Source: Idiomarina aquatica (GTDB lineage: Bacteria; Pseudomonadota; Gammaproteobacteria; Enterobacterales; Alteromonadaceae). From it: DNA of 64,000 nt. Below, piece by piece: positions 1-27,486 of this stretch (position 1 is its first letter; the number at the start of each line of letters is the position of its first letter). The position numbers and the translations under genes were made by a program. The DNA is taken from contig NZ_PIPS01000004.1 in assembly GCF_003987185.1 (NCBI RefSeq), positions 1-64,000 of the forward strand. Reading direction: 5' to 3'. Below the pieces are notes generated by a model. It saw only the letters and a list, made by a program, of their open reading frames with translations, searched no databases and was not told where the DNA came from.

Positions 1-16
1 TCAAACTCTTCAATTA
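1..16 (-). rRNA. rrs: 16S ribosomal RNA, 5' end only
   Basis: Read on the minus strand, the first 16 bases are TAATTGAAGAGTTTGA. This matches the conserved 5' end of bacterial 16S rRNA (AAATTGAAGAGTTTGA in E. coli), so the gene runs off the left edge. The boxA element and tandem promoters upstream, in the same orientation, support the call. Only the extreme 5' end is visible; the exact mature end is assumed from E. coli. Confidence 0.9.
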
Positions 17-163
17 AAAGTAGTTCAATCAACTCAATGAATTACGCGTTTTTGCTTAGCTTCAAATTTGAAACCTTGCTGAACACTCATTCAAAAGTTG
101 CAATACATAGTTCGTTTTGCTTAACTTCTGCAAGTGCCCACACAGTTTGCTTGGCTTGATATA

Positions 164-195
164 TTGTTAAAGAGCGTTTCTCAGCAGCGCTGCTG
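164..195 (-). promoter_or_regulatory. rrn leader antitermination signals (boxA and boxB-like hairpin)
   Basis: On the minus strand, GCTCTTTAACAA (positions 175 to 164) is the classical boxA of ribosomal RNA leaders, bound by NusB/S10 to form the antitermination complex. Just upstream, CAGCAGCGCTGCTG (195 to 182) is a perfect palindrome in the place where boxB sits. The order promoter, boxB-like hairpin, boxA, 16S is that of E. coli rrn operons. The leader from boxA to the 16S 5' end is about 150 nt. Confidence 0.88.
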
Positions 196-207
196 CGAGA
201 GGTGCGT

Positions 208-235
208 ATTCTACACACCTGAAGTTTTCCGTCAA
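208..235 (-). promoter_or_regulatory. rrn P2 promoter
   Basis: On the minus strand TTGACG (235-230) and TAGAAT (213-208) are separated by exactly 16 bp, the spacing typical of stable-RNA promoters. The -10 is followed by a GC-containing discriminator (ACGCACC). It is the promoter nearest the 16S gene. Its -35 region shares the 14-mer AAAAAGTGTTGACG with the tRNA-Gly promoter elsewhere in this window. Sigma-70 recognition and ppGpp sensitivity are inferred from promoter type. Confidence 0.85.
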
Positions 236-310
236 CACTTTTTTGAAAAAAGATTTTTTAGAAAACTTCTGTTTTCGGCGGCTTCGTTGCCTGCCTCGAA
301 CGTGGAGCGC

Positions 311-338
311 ATTTTAGAGATTTATCTCGCACCGTCAA
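311..338 (-). promoter_or_regulatory. rrn P1 promoter
   Basis: On the minus strand TTGACG (338-333) and TAAAAT (316-311) are 16 bp apart, followed by GCGCTCC, the GC-rich discriminator expected of a growth-rate-controlled rrn P1 promoter. An A/T-rich stretch (AAAATTGCAAAAAAGG) lies immediately upstream and could be an UP element. P1 and P2 are about 100 bp apart, as in E. coli rrn operons. Confidence 0.82.
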
Positions 339-512
339 GGCCTTTTTTGCAATTTTAACTGGTTTTATTGCCGTTTGATTACTTCATCAGCAAATGTGAT
401 CAAAATTAACATCATTCGCTGTTTTATTGCTCGTTTACGCCACTCGCAGCGGCCTTTTATATACCTTACAATAGACTGATATTAATTCGCTTTATCACAG
501 CAGGCAGGAATA
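339..512. other. Intergenic region between the rrn promoters and trmA
   Basis: This stretch must hold the UP element and any Fis sites for the leftward rrn P1 promoter, and the promoter of rightward trmA. A TACAAT hexamer at 467-472 is a plausible trmA -10, but I see no good -35 for it. No open reading frame or stable RNA is supported here. Confidence 0.4.
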
Positions 513-1616
513 ATGACGCATAAAGCCATTGGCGAGCTCGACTATCAGCAACAACTAAATGCTAAGCGCGACAGCATGCGCCAACAGTACCGCAAAGTCG
601 GGGTAACGGATTTTGAGGTGTTTCCATCCGCTCCCGTCCATTACCGTATGCGTGCCGAGTTTCGGCTTTGGCACGAAGGGGACGACCTCTACTACATTAT
701 GTTTAACCCAGAGACGCGTGAAAAAGTGCGTATGGATCAGTTCCTGCCGGGCAGTGAGCTCATTAATCGTTTGATGCAGGCCGTACGCGATTACGTCATC
801 GATAAACCATTACTCCGGCGCAAACTGTTTCAAGTCGACTTCTTAACCACGACCACTCAACAGGCTATTGTCTCTGTTCTCTATCACCGTCCTCTCGATG
901 ACGAGTGGCAAGCAGCCGCGGCAGGATTACACCAACACTTACAAAGCTATGCCGATGTTGTTCATCTGATTGGCAGAGCACGAAAGCAGAAAGTGGTATT
1001 CGGTGAGGAGTCCGTTACCGAACGCGTTACTGTGAATGGCAGAGATTACCAATCGATTCAAACCGAAAACAGCTTTACCCAACCGAATGCCGGTATCAAT
1101 CAGCAAATGATTGAGTGGGTAAGTCGGCATGCGGGTAACGCCCAACACGATTTATTAGAACTTTACTGCGGTAATGGCAACTTCACGTTGCCGTTAGCAC
1201 AGCAATTTCGGCAGGTACTGGCAACCGAAATCAGCAAGAGTTCTGTGCACGCGGCACGCGAGGGTGCAAGGCTTAATGAGATCGATAATGTTACGGTGGT
1301 AAGAATGTCGGCGGAAGACTTTAGCCAGGCCATGCAGGGAAAACTTGCGTCCAAACGCGCTGCCGACGCACAACTTGAGCGGTTTAATTGCCAGACCGTC
1401 TTAGTAGATCCCCCGCGCGCAGGGCTTGATCAGTTGGCCTTAGAGCTAGTCGCCCAGTATTCACGGATCATATACATATCGTGCAATCCGGAGACGTTAA
1501 TTGAAAACATCGAGGCGTTAGGTGAACAGTTTGAAGTAACCGCAGCAGCGATATTTGATCAGTTCCCGTACACTGACCATATTGAAGCTGGTGTCATTAT
1601 AGAGAAGAAGAGCTAA
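513..1616 (+). CDS. trmA: tRNA (uracil-5-)-methyltransferase TrmA
   Basis: TrmA uses S-adenosylmethionine to make 5-methyluridine at position 54 of the T-loop of tRNAs; the E. coli enzyme also acts on tmRNA. The protein is 367 residues, the usual family length. A SAM-binding segment DLLELYCGNGNF is followed by LVDPPRAGLD and by ISCNPETL, whose Cys324 is the catalytic nucleophile. Glu358 in DHIEAG is the general base. Both residue numbers coincide with those of E. coli TrmA. A Shine-Dalgarno-like AGGAA precedes the ATG. The gene is divergent from an rrn operon, a sensible setting for a tRNA modification gene. Its 3' end overlaps the convergent MerC-like gene by 20 bp. Confidence 0.96.
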   Translation: MTHKAIGELDYQQQLNAKRDSMRQQYRKVGVTDFEVFPSAPVHYRMRAEFRLWHEGDDLYYIMFNPETREKVRMDQFLPGSELINRLMQAVRDYVIDKPLLRRKLFQVDFLTTTTQQAIVSVLYHRPLDDEWQAAAAGLHQHLQSYADVVHLIGRARKQKVVFGEESVTERVTVNGRDYQSIQTENSFTQPNAGINQQMIEWVSRHAGNAQHDLLELYCGNGNFTLPLAQQFRQVLATEISKSSVHAAREGARLNEIDNVTVVRMSAEDFSQAMQGKLASKRAADAQLERFNCQTVLVDPPRAGLDQLALELVAQYSRIIYISCNPETLIENIEALGEQFEVTAAAIFDQFPYTDHIEAGVIIEKKS

Positions 1617-2019
1617 CTTCTGGCATCGCGCCGGTTGCGGCTGCGATGCGACTCTGCTTTCGCGAGCGTTGCAGGTTGCTCCAATGAGCGTAAATGATAA
1701 GACCTGCACCGAACAAAATAATGAAAGGTTCGCCGATATGGCCAAATACGTCCCGCTGGGAATAAATGACGGCTCCTGCCAGCAGTGGAATCAATAGGCG
1801 CCATTCACCATGTTGGCGAGCCCCTCCGACTAAAGACCACAAGCCAACCACAACGCTTAAACCCAGTATGGTGTTTTCCAACAGGTCTTCACCGATGAAT
1901 GCCATACCGGTCAGTGCCAACAAAGGCAAAATAAGAGGCAATAACAGACAGTGGATCGCGCAAAGTGTGGTGATCCACATCCCCGCCCTGTCCAACTTTT
2001 TCTGTTTTGATAGTGTCAT
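1597..2019 (-). CDS. MerC-family inner-membrane protein, probably Zur-regulated
   Basis: A 140-residue protein with about four hydrophobic segments (near residues 17-37, 48-68, 75-88 and 100-113) and the N-terminal motif CAIHC (Cys20, His23, Cys24) followed by LLLP, the signature of the MerC domain family. Classical MerC moves Hg(II), but many chromosomal MerC-domain proteins occur with no mercury operon, as here. The promoter contains a near-perfect Zur operator, so a role in zinc rather than mercury handling is more likely. This is inference; transport has not been shown. The C-terminal tail is polar and cytoplasmic-looking. The gene is monocistronic and overlaps the 3' end of trmA on the opposite strand. 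Confidence 0.72.
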   Translation of the reverse strand: MTLSKQKKLDRAGMWITTLCAIHCLLLPLILPLLALTGMAFIGEDLLENTILGLSVVVGLWSLVGGARQHGEWRLLIPLLAGAVIYSQRDVFGHIGEPFIILFGAGLIIYAHWSNLQRSRKQSRIAAATGAMPEVSSSSL

Positions 2020-2042
2020 AACCGCCTCGCTTTACTTAATGC

Positions 2043-2057
2043 TGTTATATTATAACA
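2043..2057 (-). promoter_or_regulatory. Zur operator over the -10 of the MerC-like gene
   Basis: TGTTATATTATAACA is a perfect 7-1-7 palindrome. It equals the core of the gammaproteobacterial Zur site as I recall it (TGTTATA-N-TATAACA within a 23-bp consensus). It lies 24 to 38 bp upstream of the MerC-like start codon. A TATAAT hexamer is embedded in it on the minus strand, with TTGGCA 15 bp further upstream as a possible -35. Bound Zur would therefore occlude the promoter, giving repression when zinc is sufficient. Assignment to Zur rests on sequence match only. Confidence 0.75.
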
Positions 2058-2115
2058 TACGCTTTCGACTGCCAAGAGGATCGGTTAAGTTTTTATCGAA
2101 GTGTTTGATCTGGCG

Positions 2116-3087
2116 CTAACAATTAGCAACAGAAAACGGCTGAACTTGAGCAATATGATCGGCACCGGTCGCAATCATCAACAACCGGTCAAAACCGAGG
2201 GCAACCCCAGCACACGTTGGCATGCCGTGTTCTAATGCCGCCAATAATCGTTCATCCGGTGCTTTCATCAATTTCGAATGCGCTTGCCTGAGCTCATTAT
2301 CCTGAGCAAAGCGTTGTGCCTGCACGGCGGAATCGATCAACTCATCATACCCATTAGCCAGCTCAATCCCCTGGTAATAGATTTCGAAGCGGAGCGCGAC
2401 TCGATCATCGGTTTCACTTAACCGAGCTAGTGCCGCCTGTGTCGCAGGAAAGTGAGTAATCGCAACCGGACGATCAGCGGGTAAGTTCGGTTCAACCCAT
2501 AAATAAAACGCAAGTTGCAACATGGTATCGGTGTCTGTTTCCGCCTGCATCCAGCTTGCCGTGTCATCGCGTTGTTTTAACCGCTGATGTAACGCATCTC
2601 GACCAGCGGCCGTCAGTGGATCACACTGTGTGTGTTCAAGAAACGCCTGTTGGTAGGTGATGATATCAGTCGCAGGCGCATTAATGCAGTCGGTTAATAG
2701 CTCGGCCACTTCAGCGATCAAATCATTCATCGAGAAACCGATGCGATACCACTCCAGCATCATAAATTCAGGGTTATGGTGTCGGCCAATTTCGTCATCC
2801 CGAAAAACATGACTTAATTGGTAAATGCTGGTTTTATACTGAGCTAAGAGACGCTTCATAGCGTACTCTGGCGATGTTTGTAAGAACAGCTCGAGCGCCT
2901 GGCCGGTTGCATCGGCAGAGAGGGTTGTCACGAGGTTTTCCAAATGACAGTCGGTTACTCCCCGTTGACTCAGCGCTGGCGTGTCAACTTCGAGCACCTT
3001 TCTGTCATAAAAAAACTGGCGAACTCGGCGCATCAGCTCTGCACGCTGTTGCAGAACCTCAATTGATGCCTGAGATCGCCAGTCCAT
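2116..3087 (-). CDS. epmA: EF-P--(R)-beta-lysine ligase EpmA (PoxA/GenX/YjeA)
   Basis: EpmA is a lysyl-tRNA-synthetase paralogue lacking the anticodon domain. It activates (R)-beta-lysine and attaches it to Lys34 of elongation factor P. The 323-residue protein shows class II synthetase motif 2 as FRDDEIGRHHNPEFM and motif 3 as ALGFDRLLM, with the expected length (325 in E. coli). The ATG start was chosen because the protein then aligns with E. coli EpmA; an in-frame TTG lies nine bases upstream, almost touching the efp stop. It sits 12 bases downstream of efp in the same direction, so target and modifier are probably co-transcribed, and epmB is divergent on the other side. Confidence 0.93.
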   Translation of the reverse strand: MDWRSQASIEVLQQRAELMRRVRQFFYDRKVLEVDTPALSQRGVTDCHLENLVTTLSADATGQALELFLQTSPEYAMKRLLAQYKTSIYQLSHVFRDDEIGRHHNPEFMMLEWYRIGFSMNDLIAEVAELLTDCINAPATDIITYQQAFLEHTQCDPLTAAGRDALHQRLKQRDDTASWMQAETDTDTMLQLAFYLWVEPNLPADRPVAITHFPATQAALARLSETDDRVALRFEIYYQGIELANGYDELIDSAVQAQRFAQDNELRQAHSKLMKAPDERLLAALEHGMPTCAGVALGFDRLLMIATGADHIAQVQPFSVANC

Positions 3088-3099
3088 TATCCGCAACGC

Positions 3100-3669
3100 T
3101 TATTTCTGTACACGCGAAACGTATTCACCTGAACGGGTATCAACTTTTATCACTTCACCAATTTGCACGAACAGCGGAACACGGACCACCGCACCTGTGC
3201 TCAAGGTTGCAGGTTTACCACCAGTACCCGCCGTATCACCTTTCAAACCAGGATCGGTTTCGGTCACTTCCAGTTCCACGAAGTTCGGCGGCTGGACATT
3301 AATTGGGTTACCTTCCCACAGCGTCAAAGTACATACGTCCTGTTCAACCAGCCACTTTTCTGCCTCACCAACCGCTTTGGCATCTGCAGCAACTTGTTCA
3401 AAGGTCTCATTATTCATGAAATGCCAAAACTCGCCGTCGTTGTACAGATACGCCAGTTCCAGCTCAATAACGTCCGCGCCTTCAACCGACTCACCGGATT
3501 TGAAGGTCTTCTCAACCACTTTGCCGCTAATCAACTTACGGATTTTTACGCGGTTAAATGCCTGACCTTTACCAGGTTTCACCATTTCATTCTCGATAAT
3601 GCTGCACGGCTCGCCGTCCTGCATGATCTTAAGACCACCTTTAAACTCGTTGGTACTATAATTTGCCAT
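3100..3669 (-). CDS. efp: Translation elongation factor P
   Basis: EF-P binds between the P and E sites of the ribosome and relieves stalling at consecutive prolines. The protein has the standard three-beta-barrel length (189 residues; 188 in E. coli). The loop KPGKGQAF places the modifiable Lys at residue 34, exactly where beta-lysylation occurs in E. coli. The start ATG follows an AGGAA ribosome-binding site. The presence of epmA immediately downstream and epmB divergent upstream says that this EF-P is of the lysine (not rhamnosyl-arginine) type. EpmC, which hydroxylates the modified lysine in E. coli, is not in the window. Confidence 0.97.
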
Positions 3670-3774
3670 GATATCGTTCCTTTAATCGATAACTCTGTTG
3701 GCGGCAATAATAAAACAATCAAGGAAAATTTTCAGGTAAAATAATGACCCAGTCGATCAAATAATGGGGGAATT

Positions 3775-4824
3775 TTGAATCAAGCTCGACTTTTGACTCG
3801 TCCGGACTGGCGTATGGAGCTGCAGCGGGCTTTCACTCGCCCTGACGAACTGTTACGCGCGGTCGCGTTAGATCCTGCCGATTTTTCCGCCGACGTTAAA
3901 GCTCGGCAACTGTTTCCGTTGCGTGTTCCACGCCCGTTCGTACACTTAATGGAAGCCGGCAACCCCCACGACCCACTGCTGCGTCAAGTGCTTCCGCTGC
4001 GGCAGGAATTTCATGCGCCAGCAGGCTATAGCACTGACCCGCTGCATGAGCAGTCTGCTGATACCGCTAAAGACGAAGCTAAAGGGCTGCTGCATAAATA
4101 TCGTTCTCGGGTTTTGATCATATTAAAGGGCGGCTGCGCGATTAACTGTCGTTACTGTTTTCGACGGCACTTCCCGTATGACGAGGTTCGTTTTGACCAG
4201 CATCAGTTAGAACAGACACTGGCTTACCTGTCTAACCACCCCGATGTCAACGAAGTCATCCTGAGCGGGGGCGATCCTTTGATGGCCAGCGACCACCAAT
4301 TACAACGAATCATTGCAGCGCTAGCCGACATACCAACGCTGAAGCGAGTCCGGATTCACAGTCGTCTGCCGGTCGTTATTCCAGCACGTATCACTCAGGA
4401 ACTGGTGGTCGCTTTAACCGCGACAAGATTAAAAGCATCGTTGGTGATTCATGCTAATCACGCGAACGAAATCTCGCCCTCACTGGGCGAATCGATGGCT
4501 GTACTCCGTCAGGCAGGCGTTCATTTGTTCAATCAGAGCGTCCTGTTAAAAGGCGTCAATGACACTCCGGACGCCTTGGTTAACCTGAGTGAACGTCTAT
4601 TTGATATTGATGTGTTACCCTATTACCTGCACCAACTGGACAAGGTAATCGGTGCTGCGCACTTTGAAGTTACGGATACTAAAGCGCAATATTTATGGCA
4701 ACAAATGAACATTCGTTTACCCGGCTTTTTGGTACCAAAACTTGTACGAGAGGTCGGTGGAGAACACAGTAAGACGCCCATCATGCCAGACGGCAACGTA
4801 ACTAAGTTATCAGCTTTTGAATAA
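3775..4824 (+). CDS. epmB: EF-P (R)-beta-lysine synthase, lysine 2,3-aminomutase EpmB (YjeK)
   Basis: EpmB is a radical-SAM, PLP-dependent aminomutase that turns L-lysine into (R)-beta-lysine, the substrate EpmA loads on EF-P. The 349-residue protein carries the radical-SAM cluster motif as GCAINCRYCFRRHF (CxxxCxxC) and the downstream SGGDPL motif. The length fits EpmB rather than the longer catabolic lysine 2,3-aminomutases. Translation appears to begin at a TTG preceded by GGGGGA; no ATG is available near the conserved N-terminus. The gene is divergent from efp-epmA across about 105 bp, completing the pathway. Confidence 0.93.
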   Translation: MNQARLLTRPDWRMELQRAFTRPDELLRAVALDPADFSADVKARQLFPLRVPRPFVHLMEAGNPHDPLLRQVLPLRQEFHAPAGYSTDPLHEQSADTAKDEAKGLLHKYRSRVLIILKGGCAINCRYCFRRHFPYDEVRFDQHQLEQTLAYLSNHPDVNEVILSGGDPLMASDHQLQRIIAALADIPTLKRVRIHSRLPVVIPARITQELVVALTATRLKASLVIHANHANEISPSLGESMAVLRQAGVHLFNQSVLLKGVNDTPDALVNLSERLFDIDVLPYYLHQLDKVIGAAHFEVTDTKAQYLWQQMNIRLPGFLVPKLVREVGGEHSKTPIMPDGNVTKLSAFE

Positions 4825-4837
4825 ATGAAGGAATGTT

Positions 4838-5158
4838 ATGAGCGAAGCAATGAATCAAGTCGAGCAAAAACTGCAGCAACATTTACAGGTTGTTTACCGC
4901 CAGACGGTGGACGCTGATGCCTATCTCGACGGACTGCGCCAGCAAGGTAAAGCGAAGTTTCAGGATGTTTTTGCTGAACAGAGTTGTTTCAAAACCAAAA
5001 GCAACCGGTTCCAGCCGTACCTTCAGGAAGTTACCGAGAACGTTGAGTTATGGCAACAACAGAAAAACGATGAAGAGCTGCTGCAAACAATCGTACAGCA
5101 GCTCCAGTTAATGACCGAGACGCTCGCCCGCCTTAAGCAGATTCGCCAGGCTGGTTAG
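4838..5158 (+). CDS. PriC-like protein, short form
   Basis: A 106-residue, strongly charged, predicted all-helical protein. Its middle part (AKFQDVF, then NRFQPYLQEV and LQTIVQQLQLMTETL) resembles the N-terminal half of the primosomal replication protein PriC, including the order of phenylalanines. PriC helps reload DnaB at stalled forks. The E. coli protein is about 175 residues, so this one lacks the C-terminal half and its function in restart is unproven. It follows epmB by 13 bp in the same direction and is probably co-transcribed. Its 3' end overlaps the convergent DUF3016 gene by 26 bp. Confidence 0.55.
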   Translation: MSEAMNQVEQKLQQHLQVVYRQTVDADAYLDGLRQQGKAKFQDVFAEQSCFKTKSNRFQPYLQEVTENVELWQQQKNDEELLQTIVQQLQLMTETLARLKQIRQAG

Positions 5159-5669
5159 TCTTTAGATGCTCAGAGAAGGTTTCATCAAACCAGCTTTTGA
5201 GCATTTTCTTCTCATAGTATAAGTCGTCGTTTTGCGAGCGTTTGGTTGCCATACTGCCAAAATCGAAACTCATGTCTTTTAATTTAACCTGATCTTCTTT
5301 TATGACAGCGCCATCTGCGCCATGCAACTGATAGTTAAAATGTAACACCGGGAAGTCGATCGAACGGACAACCCGGATGAAATTCGAGCCACCTTCGCCA
5401 AAAGTTGGCTCCAGACGTCCAGTCAAATCAATATCCGTTACCGTTACGTTTAGCACCTGATCTTTCGGTAGTTGCTGTGACAGCTCGTTAAAATACGCCG
5501 TTAATTCGTCCATTTGACGCTTTTGAAAACGTTCCTCAATACCACTGGCCGGCTCGAAGTCGGTATAATCTTCTACTTTTTCAAAACTTACTTTCGCTTC
5601 TCCCGCGATAGCTGTGGTCGACAGTAGTGCGAGCGCAGCGGTAGCGGCAATCATTGGAATTGTTCGCAT
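5133..5669 (-). CDS. Secreted DUF3016-family protein
   Basis: A 178-residue protein of unknown function with a clear signal peptide (MRTIPMIAATAALALL...AIAG), so it is exported to the periplasm or beyond. The start was chosen at the ATG preceded by AGGAGGTGA, a nearly ideal ribosome-binding site; a longer frame extends upstream but has none. The mature part has the features of the DUF3016 family as I recall it: an early SFEKVEDYTDF segment and a long beta-rich region ending in a charged helix. Nothing about its biochemical role is visible. The gene is downstream of, and in the same direction as, groEL but is separated from it by a strong terminator. Confidence 0.65.
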   Translation of the reverse strand: MRTIPMIAATAALALLSTTAIAGEAKVSFEKVEDYTDFEPASGIEERFQKRQMDELTAYFNELSQQLPKDQVLNVTVTDIDLTGRLEPTFGEGGSNFIRVVRSIDFPVLHFNYQLHGADGAVIKEDQVKLKDMSFDFGSMATKRSQNDDLYYEKKMLKSWFDETFSEHLKTNQPGESA

Positions 5670-5770
5670 AGTCACCTCCTGACTAAACTTGTTATCACTC
5701 CTAAGACAAAGAGATAGCATAAAAATTCCACAGCTCAAGGGAATTAACTGAAGATTTACGGTTGCCAATA

Positions 5771-5796
5771 AAAAAGGAGCCCGCAGGCTCCTTTTT
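5771..5796 (-). terminator. Rho-independent terminator of groES-groEL
   Basis: AAAAAGGAGCC, loop CGCA, GGCTCCTTTTT form a compact hairpin with a U-tract on both strands. It lies 25 bp past the groEL stop codon. The symmetry would let it act in either direction, but only groEL reads into it. Confidence 0.9.
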
Positions 5797-5820
5797 AGAG
5801 ATAAGGCCAGTAGGCCGGCA

Positions 5821-7488
<1,668 letters not shown>

Positions 7489-10254: not shown

Positions 10255-10713
10255 ATGAACCCAAAAACGTCTCAAAAAGCTAATATCCTGGTGCTTAACG
10301 GACCCAACTTAAATTTGCTGGGCACACGTGAGCCGGGCATTTATGGTGCCGAAACGCTGAGTGACATTCAGCAGCAACTGGAATTACTCGCACAACAGCA
10401 CTCGCTGACCCTCAGTTGCTTTCAGTCCAACAATGAAGCCGAACTGATAGACGCCGTTCATGCTGCGCGTGGCACTGTTGATTACATTATTATTAATGCG
10501 GCAGCCTACTCGCATACCAGTATTGCGTTGCGCGACGCCCTGACGGCGGTTGCCATCCCCTTTTATGAAGTACATATCTCTAATATTTACCGACGCGAAA
10601 GCTTTCGTCACCATTCGTATTTAGCCGATGCCGCAGAAGCCACGTTAAGTGGTTTTGGCAGCTACGGTTATTCGTTGGCGTTACTCGCGATCATCAAACA
10701 ATTACAATCCTAA
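10255..10713 (+). CDS. aroQ: 3-dehydroquinate dehydratase, type II
   Basis: AroQ catalyses the third step of the shikimate pathway, 3-dehydroquinate to 3-dehydroshikimate, by the type II (non-Schiff-base) mechanism. The 152-residue length and motifs are typical: NGPNLNLLG, the lid loop with the catalytic tyrosine in [25 protein letters not shown], and [10 protein letters not shown] with the catalytic histidine. It precedes accB by 18 bp, the aroQ-accB-accC order common in gammaproteobacteria, and is probably co-transcribed with it. Confidence 0.96.
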
Positions 10714-10731
10714 TTGAGGCAAACGGTTATC

Positions 10732-11187
10732 ATGGATATTCGTAAAATTAAAAAACTGATCGAACTTGTAGAAGAATCCGGTATCGCAGAGCTTGAAATC
10801 ACTGAGGGCGAAGAGTCGGTGCGCATCAACCGCTACAGCGCACAACCTGCACCTATGCAATATGCGGCACCACAACCAGCACCCGCAGCAGCTCCTGCGG
10901 CGGCACCGGCAAACCAGGACGCTGCAGCAGCTCCGGCAACGGAAGAACCAAGCGGTCATATCGTGCGCTCACCCATGGTTGGCACCTTCTACGAAGCTCC
11001 TTCTCCTGACGCCAGCCCGTTTGTCACTGTAGGTTCAAAAGTGAATGTCGGCGACACACTGTGTATCGTTGAAGCAATGAAAATGATGAACCAAATCGAA
11101 GCCGATAAAAGCGGCGTTGTTAAGCAGATTCTGGTCGAGAACGAAGAGCCGGTTGAGTTTGACCAGCCTCTGTTCGTCATCGAATAA
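10732..11187 (+). CDS. accB: Biotin carboxyl carrier protein of acetyl-CoA carboxylase
   Basis: AccB carries the biotin that shuttles carboxyl groups from biotin carboxylase to the carboxyltransferase in the first step of fatty-acid synthesis. The 151-residue protein has an N-terminal [12 protein letters not shown] segment, an Ala/Pro-rich flexible linker (about residues 40-75) and a biotinyl domain with VEAMKMMNQ, in which Lys117 is the biotinylation site. The ATG was chosen over an in-frame TTG six codons earlier because MDIRKIKK is the conserved family N-terminus. accC follows after 49 bp. Confidence 0.96.
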
Positions 11188-11236
11188 GCCAAGCAACATT
11201 AACCGCTAAACAACGACCAACGTTCAGGAATTTATC

Positions 11237-12586
11237 ATGTTAGATAAAGTGGTTATCGCCAACCGTGGCGAAATTGCCTTACGAATCTTGCGGGCGTGTA
11301 AGGAGCTAGGGATTAAAACCGTAGCCGTGCACTCGACCGTAGACAGAAATTTAAAGCACGTACTGCTGGCTGACGAGTCCATATGCATCGGTAAAGCACC
11401 GGCATCGGAAAGTTATTTGAACATTCCACGCATTATCAGTGCCGCCGAAATCACCGATGCGGCAGCCATCCACCCAGGTTACGGTTTCCTTGCAGAGAAC
11501 GCGGACTTTGCCGAGCAAGTTGAGAAATCCGGTTTCGTTTTTGTCGGACCGACCGCTGACGTCATTCGCTTGATGGGTGACAAAGTATCCGCCATTAAAG
11601 CCATGAAAAAGGCCGGTGTTCCTTGTGTACCTGGCTCAGACGGTCCTCTCGATGACGACGACGAGCGCAATATTAAGTTGGCCAAACGCATTGGTTATCC
11701 GATTATTATCAAAGCGGCCGGCGGCGGTGGTGGCCGTGGTATGCGTGTTGTGCGTCAGGAAAGTGAACTGTTGAGCGCGATCACCATGACCCAGAACGAG
11801 GCGCGGGCAGCGTTCGGTAACCCTGTGGTTTATATGGAGAAGTTCCTGGAAAACCCTCGTCACGTCGAAGTTCAGGTGTTAGCCGACGGCCAGGGCAACG
11901 CGATTCACTTGGGCGAACGTGACTGTTCTATGCAACGTAAGCACCAAAAAGTCGTGGAGGAAGCTCCAGCACCAGGTATCACGCCGGAAATGCGTAAATT
12001 TATTGGTGAACGCTGCGCGAAAGCCTGTATTGAAATTGGCTACCGGGGTGCCGGTACCTTCGAATTCCTGTATGAAAACGGCGAGTTCTACTTTATCGAA
12101 ATGAATACCCGAATTCAGGTAGAGCACCCGGTCACTGAGATGGTGACAGGTATCGATCTGATCAAAGAACAACTGCGCATCGCAGCCGGCCGTCAGTTGT
12201 CGATTAATCAGGAAGATGTGGTGATTCGTGGTCACGCGATTGAGTGCCGTATCAATGCTGAGGATCCCGATACGTTCATTCCTTCACCGGGCCAAATCAC
12301 TCGCTTCCACTCGCCAGGTGGATTTGGTGTACGCTGGGACTCTCACGTTTATGCCGACTACACCGTGCCGCCTAACTACGATTCAATGATCGGTAAGCTG
12401 ATCACATACGGAGAAAACCGTGATATCGCTATCGCTCGTATGCGTAACGCACTGAGCGAACTTATCATTGAAAACATTAAAACCAACGTGCCGTTACAGA
12501 AAGACATCATGGCCGATGAAAACTTCCAGCATGGTGGTACCAACATCCACTATCTTGAGAAAAAACTCGGTCTTGGAGGGCATTAG
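11237..12586 (+). CDS. accC: Biotin carboxylase of acetyl-CoA carboxylase
   Basis: AccC uses ATP and bicarbonate to carboxylate biotin on AccB. The 449-residue length equals that of E. coli AccC. The N-terminal domain starts [13 protein letters not shown]; the ATP-grasp domain has the glycine-rich loop [11 protein letters not shown] and [11 protein letters not shown]; the catalytic region includes [14 protein letters not shown]. It lies in the operon aroQ-accB-accC-prmA. The ribosome-binding site of prmA is inside its last codons, suggesting coupled translation. Confidence 0.98.
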
Positions 12587-12590
12587 GCCG

Positions 12591-13472
12591 GTGCCTTGGA
12601 TCCAACTTACCCTATCAAGTACTGAAGAGCATGCCCCGCAGGTCGGGGACATGCTCATGGCTAATGGTGCTCAGGCCGTCACGTATCGCGATGCGGCGGA
12701 TAATCCCATTTTCGAACCGCCGCTTGGCAAAGTGTTATTGTGGAAGCACAGTCTGGTTACCGGGCTGTTCGACGCCGCCGTCGATATGAAACCGGTTATC
12801 GCCAACCTCGAAAAGGCGAAAGTGCTACCCTCACCGCTACAATACAAACTCGACGGTCTGGAAGACAAAGACTGGGAACGAGAATGGATGGACAAGTTTC
12901 ACCCGATTCAGTTTGGTGAAAGGCTTTGGATTTGCCCCAGTTGGCGAGAGGTTCCTGAGCCGAGTGCCGTCAATATTTTGCTCGATCCCGGCATGGCTTT
13001 TGGTACCGGTACGCACCCCACTACGGCCATGTGCTTACGTTGGCTCGATGGAAACCCGCCAACGAACGCAAGTGTGGTCGATTTCGGGTGTGGCTCAGGC
13101 ATTTTGGGCATCGCTGCGTTGATGCTTGGCGCCAAGCACGCGATTGGCATTGATATTGACCGTCAGGCACTGATCGCAACCGTTGAAAATGCGGAACGTA
13201 ATGGCGTCGCTGATGCGTTTGATGTGTACCTACCGTCTGAACAACCGACCGCGAAAGCGGAGCTGGTGCTGGCAAACGTGCTGGCAGGGCCTCTGCGCGA
13301 GCTTGCTGCAGTCATCCTTGACTATGTAGCACCAAAGGGTCGCTTAGTGATGTCAGGCATCTTAGAACGCCAGGCTGACGATGTTATGGCGGCGTATCAG
13401 CATGCCATTGACTTTGACCCTGTGGTTGTCGATGGCGATTGGGTGATGTTATCGGGAGTACGCTCTCGCTAG
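12591..13472 (+). CDS. prmA: Ribosomal protein L11 methyltransferase PrmA
   Basis: PrmA trimethylates ribosomal protein L11 at several amino groups with S-adenosylmethionine. The 293-residue protein matches the E. coli length. It has an N-terminal substrate-recognition domain beginning PWIQLTL, and a Rossmann methyltransferase domain with LDPGMAFGTGTHPTT and VDFGCGSGILGIAAL. The start is a GTG preceded at ten bases by GGAGGG, which is within the 3' end of accC. The following intergenic region holds a terminator, so prmA is likely the last gene of the operon. Confidence 0.96.
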   Translation: MPWIQLTLSSTEEHAPQVGDMLMANGAQAVTYRDAADNPIFEPPLGKVLLWKHSLVTGLFDAAVDMKPVIANLEKAKVLPSPLQYKLDGLEDKDWEREWMDKFHPIQFGERLWICPSWREVPEPSAVNILLDPGMAFGTGTHPTTAMCLRWLDGNPPTNASVVDFGCGSGILGIAALMLGAKHAIGIDIDRQALIATVENAERNGVADAFDVYLPSEQPTAKAELVLANVLAGPLRELAAVILDYVAPKGRLVMSGILERQADDVMAAYQHAIDFDPVVVDGDWVMLSGVRSR

Positions 13473-21107: not shown

Positions 21108-22322
21108 CTAAAAAAAAGCCGCCATCAGGCTCTTACCACTGAGTAGCAGTGACACCAACATGATAACGCCAGCCAATAGATTCTGCCGGGTATTGTTGCG
21201 GTAACTGCCCAAATGTGGCTTATTGCATAACCACCAGATGAAGCCGGCCATTACTGGCAGCAAAATGCCGTTAGCTACCTGCGCCAGCCAAATCACGCTG
21301 ACAGGCTTGATGCCTGCGCTACTGATAACAATCCCGATCAGTAAGATAATACTCCAGGTGGCCCGGAACGAACGGCTTTTTAAGTGACCTGACCAACCCA
21401 TAATACCGCTGAGGGCGTAGGCCGATGCCAACGGCGCCGTGGTAGCAGAGGAGATCCCAGCCGCAAACAGCCCTATCGCCATCAGATACTGAGCTCCGAC
21501 GCCAAACAGCGGTTCCAACGATTGCGCCAGATCAGCGGCGCTGTCGATGGTGCTCTCGCGACCAAAGAAAGCCGATGCCGCAGTCGCCAACACCGCCATC
21601 GAAATTAACCCGCCCAACGGAATCGACAGCAGACTGTCTTGTTGTGCCTGTTTCAGCTGTGACGCTGTTTGCCACTTTTTAGCGGCACTGGATGCGTGCA
21701 GAAAAAGGTTGTAAGGCACCACTGTGGTACCAATCAACGCCACTACCGTGAGCGTTGCGCCGCTTGGCATTGACGGGATAAAAAGTCCTTTCAACAGCCC
21801 CATCACGTCAGGCTGGGTTAATACGAAGGTGCCAATAAAAGCCAGACTCATTAGCAGTACTAAACCAATAAGTGCTTTCTCAATGAGCCTCGCACTACCA
21901 CTCCACAGCACCGCGAACGCTACCGCACCTACCGCCACTGGCCATGCATTTTCAAGCCCTAACGACGTTAAGCTGAAATCCCCCAACAGTCCGGCCAGGC
22001 CCAGGCTGGCGCCCGATAAGTTACCGCCCTGATAGACGCTGTTACCAACGACAACGGCCGCAAAAACCAAGGCGATGAAAAAACCGCGACTGGCGGGATG
22101 CGTTAAATTTTCCCGAATATTCTCACCCAGCCCTTTTTGCGTAATCACACCAACACGTAACGCCATCTCTTGCAGGATCAGACAGGCGAGCACGGAAAAC
22201 AGCAAAGCCCATAGTAGCGCGTAGCCGAAATTGGCGCCCGCCAACGACGCCGTTACTACCGTTCCCGGACCAATGAAGGCTGCCGCTACCAGCGCGCCCG
22301 GACCAAACTGCGACAGTTTCAT
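21108..22322 (-). CDS. Divergent Nramp-family divalent metal transporter
   Basis: A 404-residue membrane protein with about eleven transmembrane segments and the Nramp fold (LeuT-like). In classical MntH the metal is bound by DPGN in helix 1 and MPHN in helix 6. Here these read GPGT (residues 18-21) and VPYN (202-205), so the metal-binding Asp, the helix-1 Asn and the soft Met ligand are all lost. The substrate is therefore unlikely to be a standard Mn2+/Fe2+ bound in the usual way; Nramp-related Mg2+ transporters also lose such ligands. Its ATG overlaps the stop codon of the upstream TPR-GGDEF gene by four bases, so the two are translationally coupled. Substrate is unknown. Confidence 0.8.
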   Translation of the reverse strand: MKLSQFGPGALVAAAFIGPGTVVTASLAGANFGYALLWALLFSVLACLILQEMALRVGVITQKGLGENIRENLTHPASRGFFIALVFAAVVVGNSVYQGGNLSGASLGLAGLLGDFSLTSLGLENAWPVAVGAVAFAVLWSGSARLIEKALIGLVLLMSLAFIGTFVLTQPDVMGLLKGLFIPSMPSGATLTVVALIGTTVVPYNLFLHASSAAKKWQTASQLKQAQQDSLLSIPLGGLISMAVLATAASAFFGRESTIDSAADLAQSLEPLFGVGAQYLMAIGLFAAGISSATTAPLASAYALSGIMGWSGHLKSRSFRATWSIILLIGIVISSAGIKPVSVIWLAQVANGILLPVMAGFIWWLCNKPHLGSYRNNTRQNLLAGVIMLVSLLLSGKSLMAAFF

Positions 22323-24409
22323 TGTTGTGGCCCTTCGATCACCGTCAGCGTGATCCAGTTGTTGTTCATGGCTTCATTTAAGTCGTGTTCGAGTGCATTG
22401 CACGCCGTATCATAATCAACCAGCAACTCGGTAACGCCACACGCTCGATTACGGCCTCTTGCCTTGCAGGTGTAGAGCGCCATATCGGCAATCTGTAGTG
22501 CGCGTTCCCAGTCCACTTGCTGTTCGCTGAGATCAGCAAACGGCAGTTCAATAAACCCTATGCTGGTGGTGATACTGATCAACTCATCATTTATTTTAAT
22601 TGGGTTCTCGGCAACCGTACGCAAAATACGTTCGGCCAGTTGGAGCAGGCTACTCTGTTTAATGCCTTTCACATAAAACAGAAATTCCTCTCCACCCCAG
22701 CGCACCAGAATGTCTGAATCGCGGCAGATGTTTTGTAACCGCTTGCTTAATTCGGTGAGAACCTTGTCACCACCGGCGTGGCCATGCCGATCATTAATCT
22801 GCTTAAAACGATCAATATCAAGCAACAGTAAGCCATCCTGACTCTTGTCTAGGGAACGAGCGCGGTCGAGCATGCGCTCTTGCAGCGCTCGTCGGTTCCA
22901 AAGACCGGTCAACGGATCCTTCAATGATTGATCGGCCAGTTGCTCATTAGCGCGATTTAACTGTTGATTGGCACGCTTCGATTTGCGGTACAACAAAAAT
23001 ACCAGCACCAGACAAACGGCAGAAAATGCGGTAAACAAGATCCATACAATGCGTTGTTGTTCACTATTTTTAATGATTTGCTCTTTTAATTCATTCTGCT
23101 GTTCCAACAGCTCAATCTGCTGTGCATCGTCGCGTGATTTGTAGACGGCTTGCAACTCCGTCATTTTTTCTAATTGCGCGTCCTTCAGAATGCGCTCTTT
23201 CAACTTGATACGCTCACGCAAAATCTCAGCCTCGGCTGCATAGTCACCTATCAATGCATAGGCCTGAGCTAATTCACCGAGCACCATCTCGAGTTCCGAT
23301 TGCGACAAGCTGTCACGAAAGATCTGGGTCGCTTCTTCCATCTGCTTGATGCCCAGACTGTCTCCCTGTTTCACTGCAATGAAACCAAGATTAAAATCGA
23401 TGGTACTGAGCATTTCATCAAATCCCAGTGCTTCCGCCTTATCACGAGCTTCCAGCAAATGCTCACGCGCCTGCTCAAACCGATCCAGCCGGAGATAAGT
23501 ATCACCGAAGTTATTGAGAATGATGACTTCCTGGTAATCAGCTTCCAGTTCCTGCGCCAGCTGGTAAGCCCGTCTTAATGACTGCAGTGCCCGCTCGTAA
23601 TCGCCAATCGAAATTTCGGCATAATATTTCGAAAACCACAAATCATAAGCGAGGCCCTGATAGCCTTTTTCCACGGCTTCTGGCACGGTTTCCTCAACCG
23701 TTAAAATAGCAGCATCCCACTGTTCCAATGAGATTTGAATGTTGGCAATGCGACTGAGCAAATACAGCCGCCGGCCCTCATTCAGCGATGAATCCATTTC
23801 TCCCAACGCCTGCTGCGCCTGCAGTAAGTGCTGAAGCGCTGAATCAAAACGCTCCCAGTCAACATAGATAGAGGACAGCAAGTTATGGCCGTAATAGCGA
23901 ATCCGTGGCGTGCGTGTCTCGTCCAGCAGTCGTTCCAACCTGGGCACCAGTAAAAAAGCATCGCCGCGTTTACCCTCCATCACCAGGAAGTCTATGCGTG
24001 AGGCCAGTATTTCGGCTTGAGCATCTGCCAACCCAACTTGATTAGCCGCCTGTCGGAGGTCATCCAACAGCGCATAGGCCTGTTCAAAACGCTCTTCATA
24101 AGCCAGTTCGCTCGCTTGATAAGCTATCGCTCTTACGCGCGTAATCAGCGGCGTATCCGTAGAAACCTGCGCCACAATGTCTGCCAGTAAAGCTTTCGCC
24201 TGCGCTTCAGACTCGCCTGCCACGGCAAGATAGTTATCCAGCTTATCTTCCAGACGTGCATCAAGAAATTGCTCGTGTACGACTTTTTGGGCATAGCCAT
24301 ACATACTGAACAGGAGTATAAAAATGTAGAGTAATGACTGCGTGACTGGACGCAGCCGTGAGCCGTGCAAAGGGGGCTGGTGGAGCCTGTTTATTGTTTT
24401 TATTGTCAT
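22319..24409 (-). CDS. TPR-containing membrane diguanylate cyclase
   Basis: A 696-residue sensor cyclase. It has a signal sequence near the N-terminus (SLLYIFILLFSMYGYAQ), a long periplasmic region of helical TPR-type repeats (about residues 60-420), a coiled coil, one transmembrane helix (about 454-474) and a cytoplasmic GGDEF domain. The active site is GGEEF at 572-576, with LLDIDRFKQIND and LTGLWNRRAL upstream, so it should make c-di-GMP. No RxxD inhibitory site was identified with certainty. The periplasmic TPR domain probably senses a peptide or envelope protein. It overlaps the downstream Nramp-type gene by four bases. Confidence 0.88.
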   Translation of the reverse strand: MTIKTINRLHQPPLHGSRLRPVTQSLLYIFILLFSMYGYAQKVVHEQFLDARLEDKLDNYLAVAGESEAQAKALLADIVAQVSTDTPLITRVRAIAYQASELAYEERFEQAYALLDDLRQAANQVGLADAQAEILASRIDFLVMEGKRGDAFLLVPRLERLLDETRTPRIRYYGHNLLSSIYVDWERFDSALQHLLQAQQALGEMDSSLNEGRRLYLLSRIANIQISLEQWDAAILTVEETVPEAVEKGYQGLAYDLWFSKYYAEISIGDYERALQSLRRAYQLAQELEADYQEVIILNNFGDTYLRLDRFEQAREHLLEARDKAEALGFDEMLSTIDFNLGFIAVKQGDSLGIKQMEEATQIFRDSLSQSELEMVLGELAQAYALIGDYAAEAEILRERIKLKERILKDAQLEKMTELQAVYKSRDDAQQIELLEQQNELKEQIIKNSEQQRIVWILFTAFSAVCLVLVFLLYRKSKRANQQLNRANEQLADQSLKDPLTGLWNRRALQERMLDRARSLDKSQDGLLLLDIDRFKQINDRHGHAGGDKVLTELSKRLQNICRDSDILVRWGGEEFLFYVKGIKQSSLLQLAERILRTVAENPIKINDELISITTSIGFIELPFADLSEQQVDWERALQIADMALYTCKARGRNRACGVTELLVDYDTACNALEHDLNEAMNNNWITLTVIEGPQQ

Positions 24410-24515: not shown

Positions 24516-26360
24516 ATGGCAGACAAGAAGCTCGATTGGTCAAAAATACTGAAGTCCGGACAGCGCATCTTTATTGGTTCCCATGCCGGCGTACCGACAG
24601 CGCTCATTAAAGACCTGATTGCCCACTCGAAAAACTTGCATGATATCGAAATCGTCCAGCTAATGACGTTGTCCGATAACGAATGGGCCAAGCCAGAACA
24701 TCAACAGTTGTTCAAGGTAAATACGTTTTTTATTGGTGGTGAAACAGTTAGAACCGCGGTTAATGAAGGGCGCGCTGATTACACACCCTGTTTTATCTCC
24801 GATATTCCTAACTTGTTCGAGAATGGCATTTTGCCCCTCGATGCGGCATTGATCATGGTCAGCCCGGCCGATCAATACGGCTATCACTCGATGGGCGTTT
24901 CCGTGGATGTGGTTTCAGCAGCGGCCAAATTCGCCAATACGGTTATCGCGCAGGTCAATCCGCAGATGCCAGTCACTTACGGCCAGTCCTTTCTGCACAA
25001 ACGTCAAATTGATTACTTTTGGGAACATGAAGAGCCATTACCCACGCTTGAACCACCGGCGACGGAAGACAGCAAGATCATCGAGCGTATCGGACAATAT
25101 ATTGCCCTACTGGTGCGTGATGGCTGCACCTTGCAAATTGGTGTCGGGCGCGTCTGTGCAGCGGCATTAAGATACCTCAGTAACCATAAAGATTTGGGTG
25201 TACACAGCGAACTGATTACCGACGACATCATGGAACTGATGCTAAAAGGGGTCATCAATAACCGCAAGAAGACATTTCACCCCAACAAAATCGTCACCAG
25301 TTTTTGCATGGGCACAAAAAAGCTCTATGATTTCGTACATCAAAACCCACATGTCGGCTTTTACCCGAGCGAATACGTTAATTCACCCACCAATGTTGCT
25401 CGAAATGACAATCTCATTGCCATCAACAGTGCCATTGAAGTGGACTTAACTGGGCAGGTCGTGTCCGACTCCATCGGTCACCAATTTTACAGTGGTATCG
25501 GCGGACAAGTTGACTTTAGCCGTGGTGCGTCACTGAGTAAAGGTGGAAAGCCTGTGGTTGCGCTACCTTCTACAACGGCGGATGGTAAAGTGTCTCGTAT
25601 CGTTGCACACATCAAGGAAGGTGCCGGTGTGGTTACGTCACGCGGCCACGTTCATTATGTGGTAACCGAGTTCGGCGTCGCCTCACTGCGCGGCAAAAGC
25701 ATCCGCGAGCGGGCGTTGGAGCTTATTCGTGTTGCCCATCCGAAGTTCCGCCAACAGTTGCTGCAACAGGTACGCCAACATTACTGGGTACCTCATTATC
25801 AGCAACAGACACCGGTCGACGTGCCTGAACTGGGCGCAATAGGTTTTAAAAAGATCCAGTTTAAAGGGGAAGAATTTGATCTGCGACCACTGTACCCGTC
25901 GGATGAACGACGCTTGCAGGAGTTTTTCTATTCGCACACCAAGGAAACCCTGCAGCTCAGGTACAACGCCGTACCAACCAGCATGAGCCGGGAGAAGTCC
26001 TGCACCCTGGTCAGCATCGATCAGTCAAAGGATCTCGCCCTCTGCATTGTGCGCCAAAAAGGCTCGGCCGCCAAAATTATGGCCGTTGGTCGCTATTACT
26101 TCATCGAATCACAAAACAGCTGTGAGGTAGCCTTCGTAACCCGTGAGCATTACCAGGGACAAGGTATGGCCAGCATGTTACTGCATGAGATGATACGTAT
26201 CGCCAAATCTCGCGGCCTGCAGAGTATGCAGGCAGTCGTACTGGCAAATAATACGCCCATGCTTAACGTCTTTGAGAAAGCCGGGTTTAAACGTTTACCG
26301 GCTGATGAGCCCGGCGAAGTTTTGCTGAAACTGTCGTTGCATGATGACAAGGAAGAGTAA
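24516..26360 (+). CDS. Acetyl-CoA hydrolase/transferase fused to a GNAT acetyltransferase domain
   Basis: A 614-residue two-domain protein. Residues 1 to about 440 are a family I CoA-transferase/acetyl-CoA hydrolase: catalytic Glu308 lies in NSAIEVDLTG, followed by the oxyanion loop SGIGGQVDF (GIGG at 327-330). Residues from about 455 to 610 are a GNAT fold with the acetyl-CoA loop REHYQGQGMASML. The first half could move CoA between acetate and other acyl groups or hydrolyse acetyl-CoA; the second could acetylate an amine, possibly a protein lysine. Such fusions are annotated in marine gammaproteobacteria, but their substrates are not known to me. Its stop codon overlaps the start of a deacetylase gene (TAATG), so the two are coupled. 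Confidence 0.86.
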   Translation: MADKKLDWSKILKSGQRIFIGSHAGVPTALIKDLIAHSKNLHDIEIVQLMTLSDNEWAKPEHQQLFKVNTFFIGGETVRTAVNEGRADYTPCFISDIPNLFENGILPLDAALIMVSPADQYGYHSMGVSVDVVSAAAKFANTVIAQVNPQMPVTYGQSFLHKRQIDYFWEHEEPLPTLEPPATEDSKIIERIGQYIALLVRDGCTLQIGVGRVCAAALRYLSNHKDLGVHSELITDDIMELMLKGVINNRKKTFHPNKIVTSFCMGTKKLYDFVHQNPHVGFYPSEYVNSPTNVARNDNLIAINSAIEVDLTGQVVSDSIGHQFYSGIGGQVDFSRGASLSKGGKPVVALPSTTADGKVSRIVAHIKEGAGVVTSRGHVHYVVTEFGVASLRGKSIRERALELIRVAHPKFRQQLLQQVRQHYWVPHYQQQTPVDVPELGAIGFKKIQFKGEEFDLRPLYPSDERRLQEFFYSHTKETLQLRYNAVPTSMSREKSCTLVSIDQSKDLALCIVRQKGSAAKIMAVGRYYFIESQNSCEVAFVTREHYQGQGMASMLLHEMIRIAKSRGLQSMQAVVLANNTPMLNVFEKAGFKRLPADEPGEVLLKLSLHDDKEE

Positions 26361-27292
26361 TGTCAATTACGTTGTTTTCTCATAAAGATTGTGCGCTGCA
26401 TAATCCTGACCCACACCATCCGGAATGTCCCGCTCGACTGGATGCCATTAACGATCAAATCATTCGTTCTGGCCTTGATTTTGTTATCGTCCGCGAACAA
26501 GCAACCGCCTCCGGTTTGGCGCCCATCTATCAGGTACATGATCGTGCTTATGTTGATGGCCTATTCGCTAAAGTTCCTGCCGACGGCCACATCTGGCTCG
26601 ATCCAGATACACCAATGACGTCCCAAACCCTGACGTCGGCATTGATGGCGGTCGGCGCCAACATCAATGCGGTTGACCATGTCATGTCGCATACAAATCA
26701 TCAGGCATTTTGCGCCGTCCGTCCACCAGGTCACCATGCCACGCGTAATCAGGCCATGGGCTTTTGTGTTTTTAACAACATCGCCATTGCCGCTCGTTAT
26801 GCCATCGATCATTACGGCCTTGAGCGGGTGGCTATTGTTGATTTTGACGTACACCACGGTAACGGCACCGAAGATATTTTTGAACACGATCCGCGGGTCT
26901 TATTCTGTTCCTCGTTTCAGCAACAACTTTACCCATTTGTGGATGAAAATCACAACAACGAGCACATTCTTAGTATTGGTTTACCACCAAGCTGTAAAAA
27001 CTATGAATGGCGGGAAGCGGTTTACCAACGCTGGTTCCCCAAAATTGATGCGTTCAAACCGCAACTTATTCTGATCTCGGCCGGTTTTGACGGCCACATT
27101 GAAGACGAGATGTCCCAATTCTTGTTGAAAGAAGACGATTACTATTGGGTCACCGAACAACTCAAACGGCTCGCTGATAAACACTGCCAGGGGCGGATCG
27201 TTTCAACGCTGGAAGGCGGTTATGCGCTCAGTGCGTTAGGACGTAGTGTCGTCGCTCATCTCAAGGGGATGTTGGGTAGTGATGCGTATTAG
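26360..27292 (+). CDS. Class II histone-deacetylase-family amidohydrolase
   Basis: A 310-residue zinc deacetylase of the HDAC/acetoin-utilisation/acetylpolyamine superfamily. The catalytic His pair is RPPGHH (125-126). Zinc ligands are Asp163 and His165 in DFDVHHGNGT and Asp244 in SAGFDGH; the transition-state tyrosine is Tyr287 in LEGGY. All catalytic residues are present, so it should be active. Bacterial members remove acetyl or other acyl groups from lysines, polyamines or small amines. It starts within the stop codon of the CoA-transferase/GNAT gene, which suggests a linked role in acyl transfer and removal. It may instead belong to a polyamine or acetoin-type pathway; no other genes for these are beside it. 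Confidence 0.9.
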   Translation: MSITLFSHKDCALHNPDPHHPECPARLDAINDQIIRSGLDFVIVREQATASGLAPIYQVHDRAYVDGLFAKVPADGHIWLDPDTPMTSQTLTSALMAVGANINAVDHVMSHTNHQAFCAVRPPGHHATRNQAMGFCVFNNIAIAARYAIDHYGLERVAIVDFDVHHGNGTEDIFEHDPRVLFCSSFQQQLYPFVDENHNNEHILSIGLPPSCKNYEWREAVYQRWFPKIDAFKPQLILISAGFDGHIEDEMSQFLLKEDDYYWVTEQLKRLADKHCQGRIVSTLEGGYALSALGRSVVAHLKGMLGSDAY

Positions 27293-27296: not shown

Positions 27297-27372
27297 TGGA
27301 GCGGGAAACGAGATTCGAACTCGCGACCCCAACCTTGGCAAGGTTGTGCTCTACCAGCTGAGCTATTCCCGC
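27297..27372 (-). tRNA. glyT: tRNA-Gly (GCC anticodon), copy 2 in transcription order
   Basis: On the minus strand this is a 76-nt cloverleaf including an encoded CCA end. It has a GCGGGAA/TTCCCGC acceptor stem, a D-loop AGCTCAGCTGGTAGAGC, an anticodon stem CAACC/GGTTG around TTGCCAA (anticodon GCC), and the T-arm GGTTCGAATC variant GAGTTCGAATCTC. It is identical to the upstream copy and separated from it by 38 bp. The gene symbol is not certain. Confidence 0.96.
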
Positions 27373-27410: not shown

Positions 27411-27486
27411 TGGAGCGGGAAACGAGATTCGAACTCGCGACCCCAACCTTGGCAAGGTTGTGCTCTACCAGCTGAGCTATTCCCGC
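27411..27486 (-). tRNA. glyT: tRNA-Gly (GCC anticodon), copy 1 in transcription order
   Basis: A 76-nt tRNA-Gly on the minus strand, identical in sequence to the second copy, with encoded CCA. It is the first of the tandem pair and lies just downstream of a stable-RNA promoter. Tandem GCC glycine tRNAs suit a codon preference for GGC and GGT. The gene symbol is not certain. Confidence 0.96.

Follow-up and report, generated by a model that had tools for sequence, protein, structure and literature searches.

A CoA-transferase–GNAT fusion and an HDAC-family deacetylase form a conserved two-gene unit in Idiomarina, probably a reversible acylation switch

In the first 64,000 nucleotides of contig NZ_PIPS01000004.1 of Idiomarina aquatica (assembly GCF_003987185.1), the stretch of DNA referred to here as the window, a protein that joins a coenzyme A (CoA) transferase to a GNAT domain is encoded directly upstream of a zinc deacetylase of the HDAC family. 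The two genes form one unit, with which Idiomarina-type marine bacteria probably add small acyl marks to metabolic enzymes and remove them again, judging from the kinship of the proteins. The fusion takes the place of the canonical protein acetyltransferase Pat, and the two nearly exclude each other among genomes. We consider it probable that the pair is a reversible lysine-acylation switch, in which the Pat-type GNAT would be the writer, the HDAC the eraser, acyl-CoA synthetases such as the acetyl-CoA synthetase Acs the targets and the CoA-transferase a linked domain. The features of the unit are as follows.

24516..26360 (+): CoA-transferase–GNAT fusion, 614 amino acids; open reading frame call, Pfam, PDB and Foldseek matches, active-site residues
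Fusion, residues ~10-425: CoA-transferase; nucleophile Glu232, GxGG loop 327-330
Fusion, residues ~450-592: Pat-type GNAT; catalytic Glu537, CoA loop 547-552
26358..26362 (+): TAATG stop/start overlap joining the fusion and HDAC genes; sequence
26360..27292 (+): HDAC-family Zn deacetylase, 310 amino acids; open reading frame, PF00850; H125, H126, D161, D163, H165, D244, Y288

Results

Two overlapping genes

Both open reading frames lie where a sequence-only reading of this DNA had placed them, and its statement that CoA-transferase and GNAT are parts of a single protein was upheld: the 614-residue product matches PF13336 (AcetylCoA_hyd_C; E 6.9e-67), PF02550 (AcetylCoA_hydro; 1.1e-24) and, at 6.1e-11 for the best model, GNAT. 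The 310-residue product matches PF00850 (Hist_deacetyl; E 1.9e-83). The overlap that had been described between the two genes is likewise present, the TAA stop of the fusion (26358-26360) sharing one base with the HDAC ATG at 26360, and from this TAATG arrangement the two genes are likely to be translationally coupled.

The fusion and the HDAC are linked throughout the family

Among 147 genomes sampled from the family, the fusion (E <= 1e-130) was found in 80, the HDAC (E <= 1e-50) in 92 and both in 79. In all 79, which represent 27 genera, the genes are neighbours on the same contig and strand with the HDAC directly downstream, so that the linkage exceeds chance. The sole fusion genome without the HDAC (G445) is an 81% complete assembly in which an unrelated gene on the opposite strand follows the fusion. 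When the named loci were inspected (the best 80 of 337 confirmed), the HDAC was downstream on the same strand in 80 of 80, at a spacing of −10 to +27 nucleotides and overlapping the fusion in 42, with the HDAC start set where Met1 of the window's protein aligns. Conservation of the gene pair, which had been proposed as a check on the unit, was thus seen in 79 of 80 fusion genomes and in every named locus. In no family genome with both genes were they carried apart, the condition that had been named as grounds for rejecting the unit; in other families, fusions without a neighbouring HDAC do occur.

Within the genus, 17 of 19 genomes (the window's own included) have both genes, adjacent to each other, and the fusion and the close HDAC are both missing from the remaining two (G012 and G014). 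Without the pair, G014 retains the gene order TPR-GGDEF, two tRNA-Gly, oligoribonuclease, RsgA, phosphatidylserine decarboxylase and RND pump. The border of the unit in the window and the corresponding empty site are given below.

27297..27372 (−): tRNA-Gly(gcc), right border of the two-gene unit
27411..27486 (−): second tRNA-Gly(gcc)
L203 (G014:C5) 10292-13261: empty site in Idiomarina G014, where TPR-GGDEF, two tRNA-Gly(gcc) and orn adjoin without the two-gene unit

The GNAT half is related to Pat

Sequence and predicted fold both assign the GNAT half to the Pat type of protein acetyltransferase. The top matches in a PDB sequence search (Pat at 2.5e-16) were 9it0 and 9isq (Escherichia coli PatZ), 4nxy and 4u5y (Streptomyces lividans Pat) and 4orf and 4oll (Mycobacterium smegmatis Pat), and the first eight Foldseek matches of a GNAT-only model (predicted local distance difference test score [pLDDT] of 77.6) were all Pat. 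Among these top fold matches is the S. lividans Pat GNAT domain bound to the C-terminal domain of acetyl-CoA synthetase. The C-terminal Pat-type GNAT of about 200 amino acids that marks a Type I Pat is thus found in the fusion by both sequence and fold. Residues were compared over 118 full-length fusion loci, in which some genomes occur twice and which hold 109 distinct sequences, the window's included. The acetyl-CoA loop, which the sequence-only reading had called intact, is present as Gln547-x-x-Gly550-x-Ala552, with Gly550 in 118 of 118 loci. At position 537, 106 of the 109 distinct fusions have Glu and the other 3 Asp; in the alignment with 4orf, Glu537 falls on chain position 241, which we infer to be E234 of M. 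smegmatis Pat if the construct carries a 7-residue tag. E234 could serve as the catalytic base (PMC8556138; this and the other PMC papers are cited from excerpts of their text), and a structure of the E234A form exists, according to its PDB title. A tree of 49 GNAT domains, left unrooted, set apart fusions of the window's type (A; 25), a second fusion type (B; 6) and canonical Pat (18), each on one side of a branch, at a junction where the program warns that long branches meet.

The HDAC keeps its catalytic residues

No variation was seen at H125, H126, D161, D163, H165, D244 and Y288 across 99 HDAC loci, which correspond to 90 distinct sequences (own copy included), and the HH dyad, the Asp-His-Asp zinc site and the catalytic Tyr that define a PF00850 deacetylase are found in all 90. 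His125, His126, Asp163, His165 and Asp244 had been correctly assigned from the sequence; the tyrosine had been placed at 287, which is Gly, and is residue 288. The closest solved relatives are 5ji5 (E 9.6e-102) and HDAC6. The Idiomarina aquatica genome also encodes a second, distant HDAC-family gene (L002; G000:C5:97265-98059), 27% identical over the aligned part, and a sirtuin. As an alternative eraser the sirtuin was rejected, since sirtuins are present in 36 of 80 fusion genomes (the window's own among them) versus 45 of 67 other family genomes and neither replace nor follow the HDAC cleanly.

The fusion stands in for canonical Pat

When the last 525 residues of a Pat served as the query at a cutoff of E <= 1e-60, canonical Pat was found in only 8 of the 147 family genomes; all 8 have the HDAC and none has the fusion. 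In a draw of 398 genomes from the phylum, full-length Pat (E <= 1e-100, with the match reaching the GNAT) was found in 113, comprising 1 of 44 fusion genomes versus 112 of 354 others. Outside the family, at least 133 genomes among the matches listed carry the HDAC, and 68 of these have a full Pat, which lies within 1 kb of the HDAC in 13 (11 divergent, 1 co-directional and 1 convergent). A shorter Pat (822 amino acids) stands beside the HDAC in G171, and Pat and HDAC are divergent neighbors in G470 and G528.

A tree of 28 HDACs, chosen from 99 fusion-linked loci, and 32 others placed the 28 in one group (support, 93/92). Widened to the smallest well-supported set that contains it (97/95; 37 rows), the group takes in eight further HDACs, all of Pat genomes, plus the HDAC of G214, where Pat is also encoded; the HDACs of G433, G473 and G482, genomes in which no fusion and no Pat at 1e-60 was found, fall outside it.

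The CoA-transferase half is of the 4-hydroxybutyrate/butyrate type

Fusion residues ~10-425 align with the solved 4-hydroxybutyrate CoA-transferases 9vag, 2oas, 3eh7, 3d3u and 3gk7, including the nucleophile and the GxGG loop, and the PDB match to this enzyme reached E 7.7e-125 with the whole fusion as the query and 4.1e-125 with the CoA-transferase part. On sequence grounds this half is of the 4-hydroxybutyrate/butyrate CoA-transferase type, whose two Pfam domains (PF02550 and PF13336), catalytic Glu and GxGG loop are all present; for the narrower NCBIfam butyryl-CoA:acetate equivalog, the cutoff of 674.8 bits lies far above the fusion's score of 264.6. Glu232 (in HSEL) aligns with position 238 of 3gk7, reportedly the active-site Glu of that enzyme (Macieira et al. 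2009); in a literature search on the 4-hydroxybutyrate CoA-transferase active site, Glu238 was mentioned in no paper found. The sequence-only reading had named Glu308 as the nucleophile. This was not sustained, because the equivalent residue is Gln in 3gk7, in 2oas and in the stand-alone CoA-transferase (46% identical) that the window's own genome also encodes. A parallel active-site glutamate in AarC is Glu294 (PMC4876117), and the predicted active center of butyrate CoA-transferases has been placed at a GGQxDF stretch (PMC8360832) that adjoins the GxGG loop of the fusion.

Q207, G209, G211 and the loop glycines G327, G329 and G330 are invariant over all 118 full-length loci, and position 232 varies only between Glu (106 of the 109 distinct fusions) and Asp (3). 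Retention of CoA-transferase chemistry is favored because the nucleophile is so strongly conserved; the Asp is mildly contrary to this for Alkalimonas, to which all three Asp232 fusions (L081, L082 and L083) belong and in which it is perhaps a step toward a pure sensor domain. Window positions 25140-25166 encode GVGRVCAAA where CoA-transferases usually have G-x-G-x-I-P-x-A, and fusions of other genera and families keep G-x-G-x-IP; an altered acyl pocket is possible from this stretch.

Given this enzyme type, the earlier suggestion that the fusion sets the acetyl-CoA/acetate balance is one guess only. The CoA-transferase more likely replaces the regulatory NDP-forming synthetase domain of Pat, a domain described as inactive (PMC8556138).

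A probable writer-eraser switch and its alternatives

The suggestion of an acyl writer-eraser unit gains from the linkage of the pair, from the Pat-type GNAT and from close HDAC relatives that partner Pat elsewhere, as far as sequence comparison can tell. The simplest view is that the fusion would be a Pat whose sensing domain is a CoA-transferase. Its GNAT half would acylate, and so switch off, AMP-forming acyl-CoA synthetases, foremost Acs, and the HDAC-family enzyme, probably cotranslated, would take the mark off again. The CoA-transferase half would bind acyl-CoA and couple the switch to the acyl-CoA/organic-acid state; it probably still exchanges CoA with carboxylates, since nucleophile and glycine loop are kept. 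With the working domain of Pat on a CoA-transferase, the switch may read a different metabolic signal. AMP-forming acyl-CoA synthetases are the more likely shared target than polyamines, and Acs, which carries PKTRSG, is encoded in the window's own genome. The presence or absence of Acs was discarded as a marker of partnership: matches at 1e-200 were found in 28 of 31 genomes, including G012 and G014, which lack the pair, and were uninformative.

A number of observations weigh against the switch. Partial matches make up 3 of the 80 family fusions: two lie at contig starts (G485 and G524), and the third (G550), which spans residues 5-348 only, could reflect gene breakage or faulty assembly. In none of 20 non-family fusion loci (L032-L051) was the HDAC found beside the fusion over ~1.4 to 1.5 kb downstream, with the contigs of L032 and L046 stopping 137 and 334 bases downstream. 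For the fusion of G030 the HDAC was absent within the 11 kb read and in a genome search, and the best HDAC in the 34 non-family fusion genomes of the phylum draw, among the matches listed, reached 3.8e-32 (G094). Because non-family fusions stand without such an HDAC, the fusion writer can exist without this eraser. The converse association with Pat is also incomplete: no Pat was found at 1e-60 in 5 of the 13 family genomes with the HDAC and without the fusion (G433, G473, G504, G531 and G482), no full Pat was detected in 65 of the 133 listed non-family HDAC genomes, and the HDACs encoded beside Pat in G470 and G528 fall outside the 37-row set. Exclusion of Pat by the fusion is not absolute, as one fragmented assembly (G142) holds both, and Fisher tests on co-occurrence disregard shared ancestry and were not used as evidence of strength. 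The Acs gene (G000:C1) is not close to the pair (G000:C4), and the sirtuin of the same genome could be the Acs deacetylase. Finally, an AlphaFold2 model of the whole fusion (pLDDT of 64, predicted TM score of 0.48, residues 304-396 below 50) has domain contacts that are not readable and was left out of the fold search.

Besides sensing, the CoA-transferase could also feed the GNAT: CoA would be moved onto an abundant acid (propionate, butyrate or a hydroxy acid), that acyl group would be placed on acyl-CoA synthetases and the HDAC would erase it. We regard such a supply role as unlikely. If it were true, the type of mark would record the acid pool, and bacterial protein acyltransferases would gain a sixth architecture, one that supplies itself.

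It is quite unlikely that the CoA-transferase is instead the business end of a self-regulating enzyme, with the GNAT acylating the CoA-transferase itself or a partner pathway and the HDAC reversing this. The constraint on the CoA-transferase residues, including position 232, is what an active enzyme would have, and the separate stand-alone CoA-transferase of the same genome is also in keeping with such an arrangement. Yet the GNAT resembles Pat in particular, Pat is well known to act on AMP-forming synthetases (PMC6640162) and the HDAC partners canonical Pat in genomes that lack a CoA-transferase fusion.

Acetylation of small molecules by the GNAT (polyamines or another amine), with the HDAC-family enzyme as amidohydrolase of the same product, is suggested by the membership of acetylpolyamine amidohydrolases and the polyamine deacetylase HDAC10 in the HDAC family, both of which are among the weaker PDB matches of the HDAC. 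It is very unlikely, as the polyamine acetyltransferase SpeG appears first at rank 26 in the fold search of the GNAT model and the acetylpolyamine amidohydrolase 9gkz (E 3.1e-30) lies far below 5ji5 and HDAC6; bacterial polyamine deacetylases have moreover been suggested to be confined to cluster 4 (PMC11532494), with which the window's HDAC was compared by similarity ranks only. That the two genes share an operon and act on different substrates is highly improbable, for although fusions without a neighboring HDAC in other families and the 65 listed HDAC genomes without a detected full Pat would suit it, the linkage across 27 genera, the joint absence with intact flanks and the several arrangements in which the HDAC stands beside Pat elsewhere speak against separate functions.

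Relation to known systems

Like Type I Pat (NDP-forming acyl-CoA synthetase plus GNAT), the fusion carries a C-terminal Pat-type GNAT behind a large acyl-CoA-handling domain, the catalytic Glu aligns and a related HDAC is present in all eight family Pat genomes. Unlike Pat, its N terminus is a CoA-transferase (PF02550/PF13336) with the nucleophile kept and with no PF13380, PF13607 or PF13549, all of which were found in 3 of 3 control Pats. The fusion shares PF02550 and PF13336 with 4-hydroxybutyrate/butyryl-CoA:acetate CoA-transferases and adds a GNAT domain to them. With Type III GNATs (cyclic AMP-, ACT- or NADP-binding domain plus GNAT) it would have in common an N-terminal domain that reads a small molecule on a protein-acetylating GNAT, except that here this domain is a complete enzyme of CoA chemistry.

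As in acuABC of Bacillus subtilis, genes for a GNAT protein acetyltransferase and a Zn deacetylase stand together, here adjacent and co-directional; the window's pair differs in having no neighboring AcuB-like gene, no adjacent acs and no divergent acsA at the locus. We know of no CoA-transferase in AcuA. In B. subtilis, AcuA and AcuC write and erase on AcsA (PMC11910552, PMC8556138). RpPat and LdaA of Rhodopseudomonas palustris are likewise a Pat writer with an HDAC-family eraser and act on many acyl-CoA synthetases (PMC6640162); RpPat, unlike the fusion, is a single-domain GNAT (PMC8556138). Five types of bacterial protein acetyltransferase have been recognized according to which domains are joined to the GNAT; a CoA-transferase is not among these partners in the excerpts of the two papers that set out such a scheme (PMC8556138, PMC11254643).

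A literature search (open-licence PMC text, titles and abstracts) found no paper describing a CoA-transferase–GNAT fusion. Automatic annotation presumably already gives such proteins a bifunctional product name, "acetyl-CoA hydrolase/transferase / GNAT", and the architecture has probably been met by annotation pipelines though unstudied. If the proposed switch is real, nature would have exchanged the domain joined to the GNAT and kept a related eraser and, probably, the target, so that the contribution of the regulatory domain to a Pat could be addressed directly. The unit would also offer a testable writer, eraser and target for marine bacteria that seldom carry Pat (8 of 147 genomes).

Genomic surroundings and a second fusion type

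In the 2.97-Mb own genome, the closest neighbours of the pair are Nramp, TPR-GGDEF, the two tRNA-Gly genes, oligoribonuclease and RsgA. The divergent TPR-GGDEF gene beside the pair (window 22319-24409) varies, being 57% identical in G001 and 45% identical in G014, and an orthologue-level match to it was absent from G004 and G012. A scan for promoters and terminators gave counts equal to those in shuffles. A plasmid origin of the fusion was rejected, 0 of 17 matching plasmid records covering 80% of it.

A second, distant type of CoA-transferase–GNAT fusion, 41 to 44% identical to that of the window, was found in the six loci fetched. In three of these, listed below, and by coordinates in G122, its gene overlaps by 4 bases an upstream gene for an NDP-forming acyl-CoA synthetase that lacks a GNAT.

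L183 (G063) 3-3838: second-type fusion locus
L184 (G098) 1-3848: second-type fusion locus
L187 (G032) 2291-6330: second-type fusion locus

In L185, L186 and L188 the synthetase gene was not found within ~2 kb upstream of the fusion. At the loci with the overlap, each half of Pat has a counterpart, with the GNAT attached to the CoA-transferase instead.

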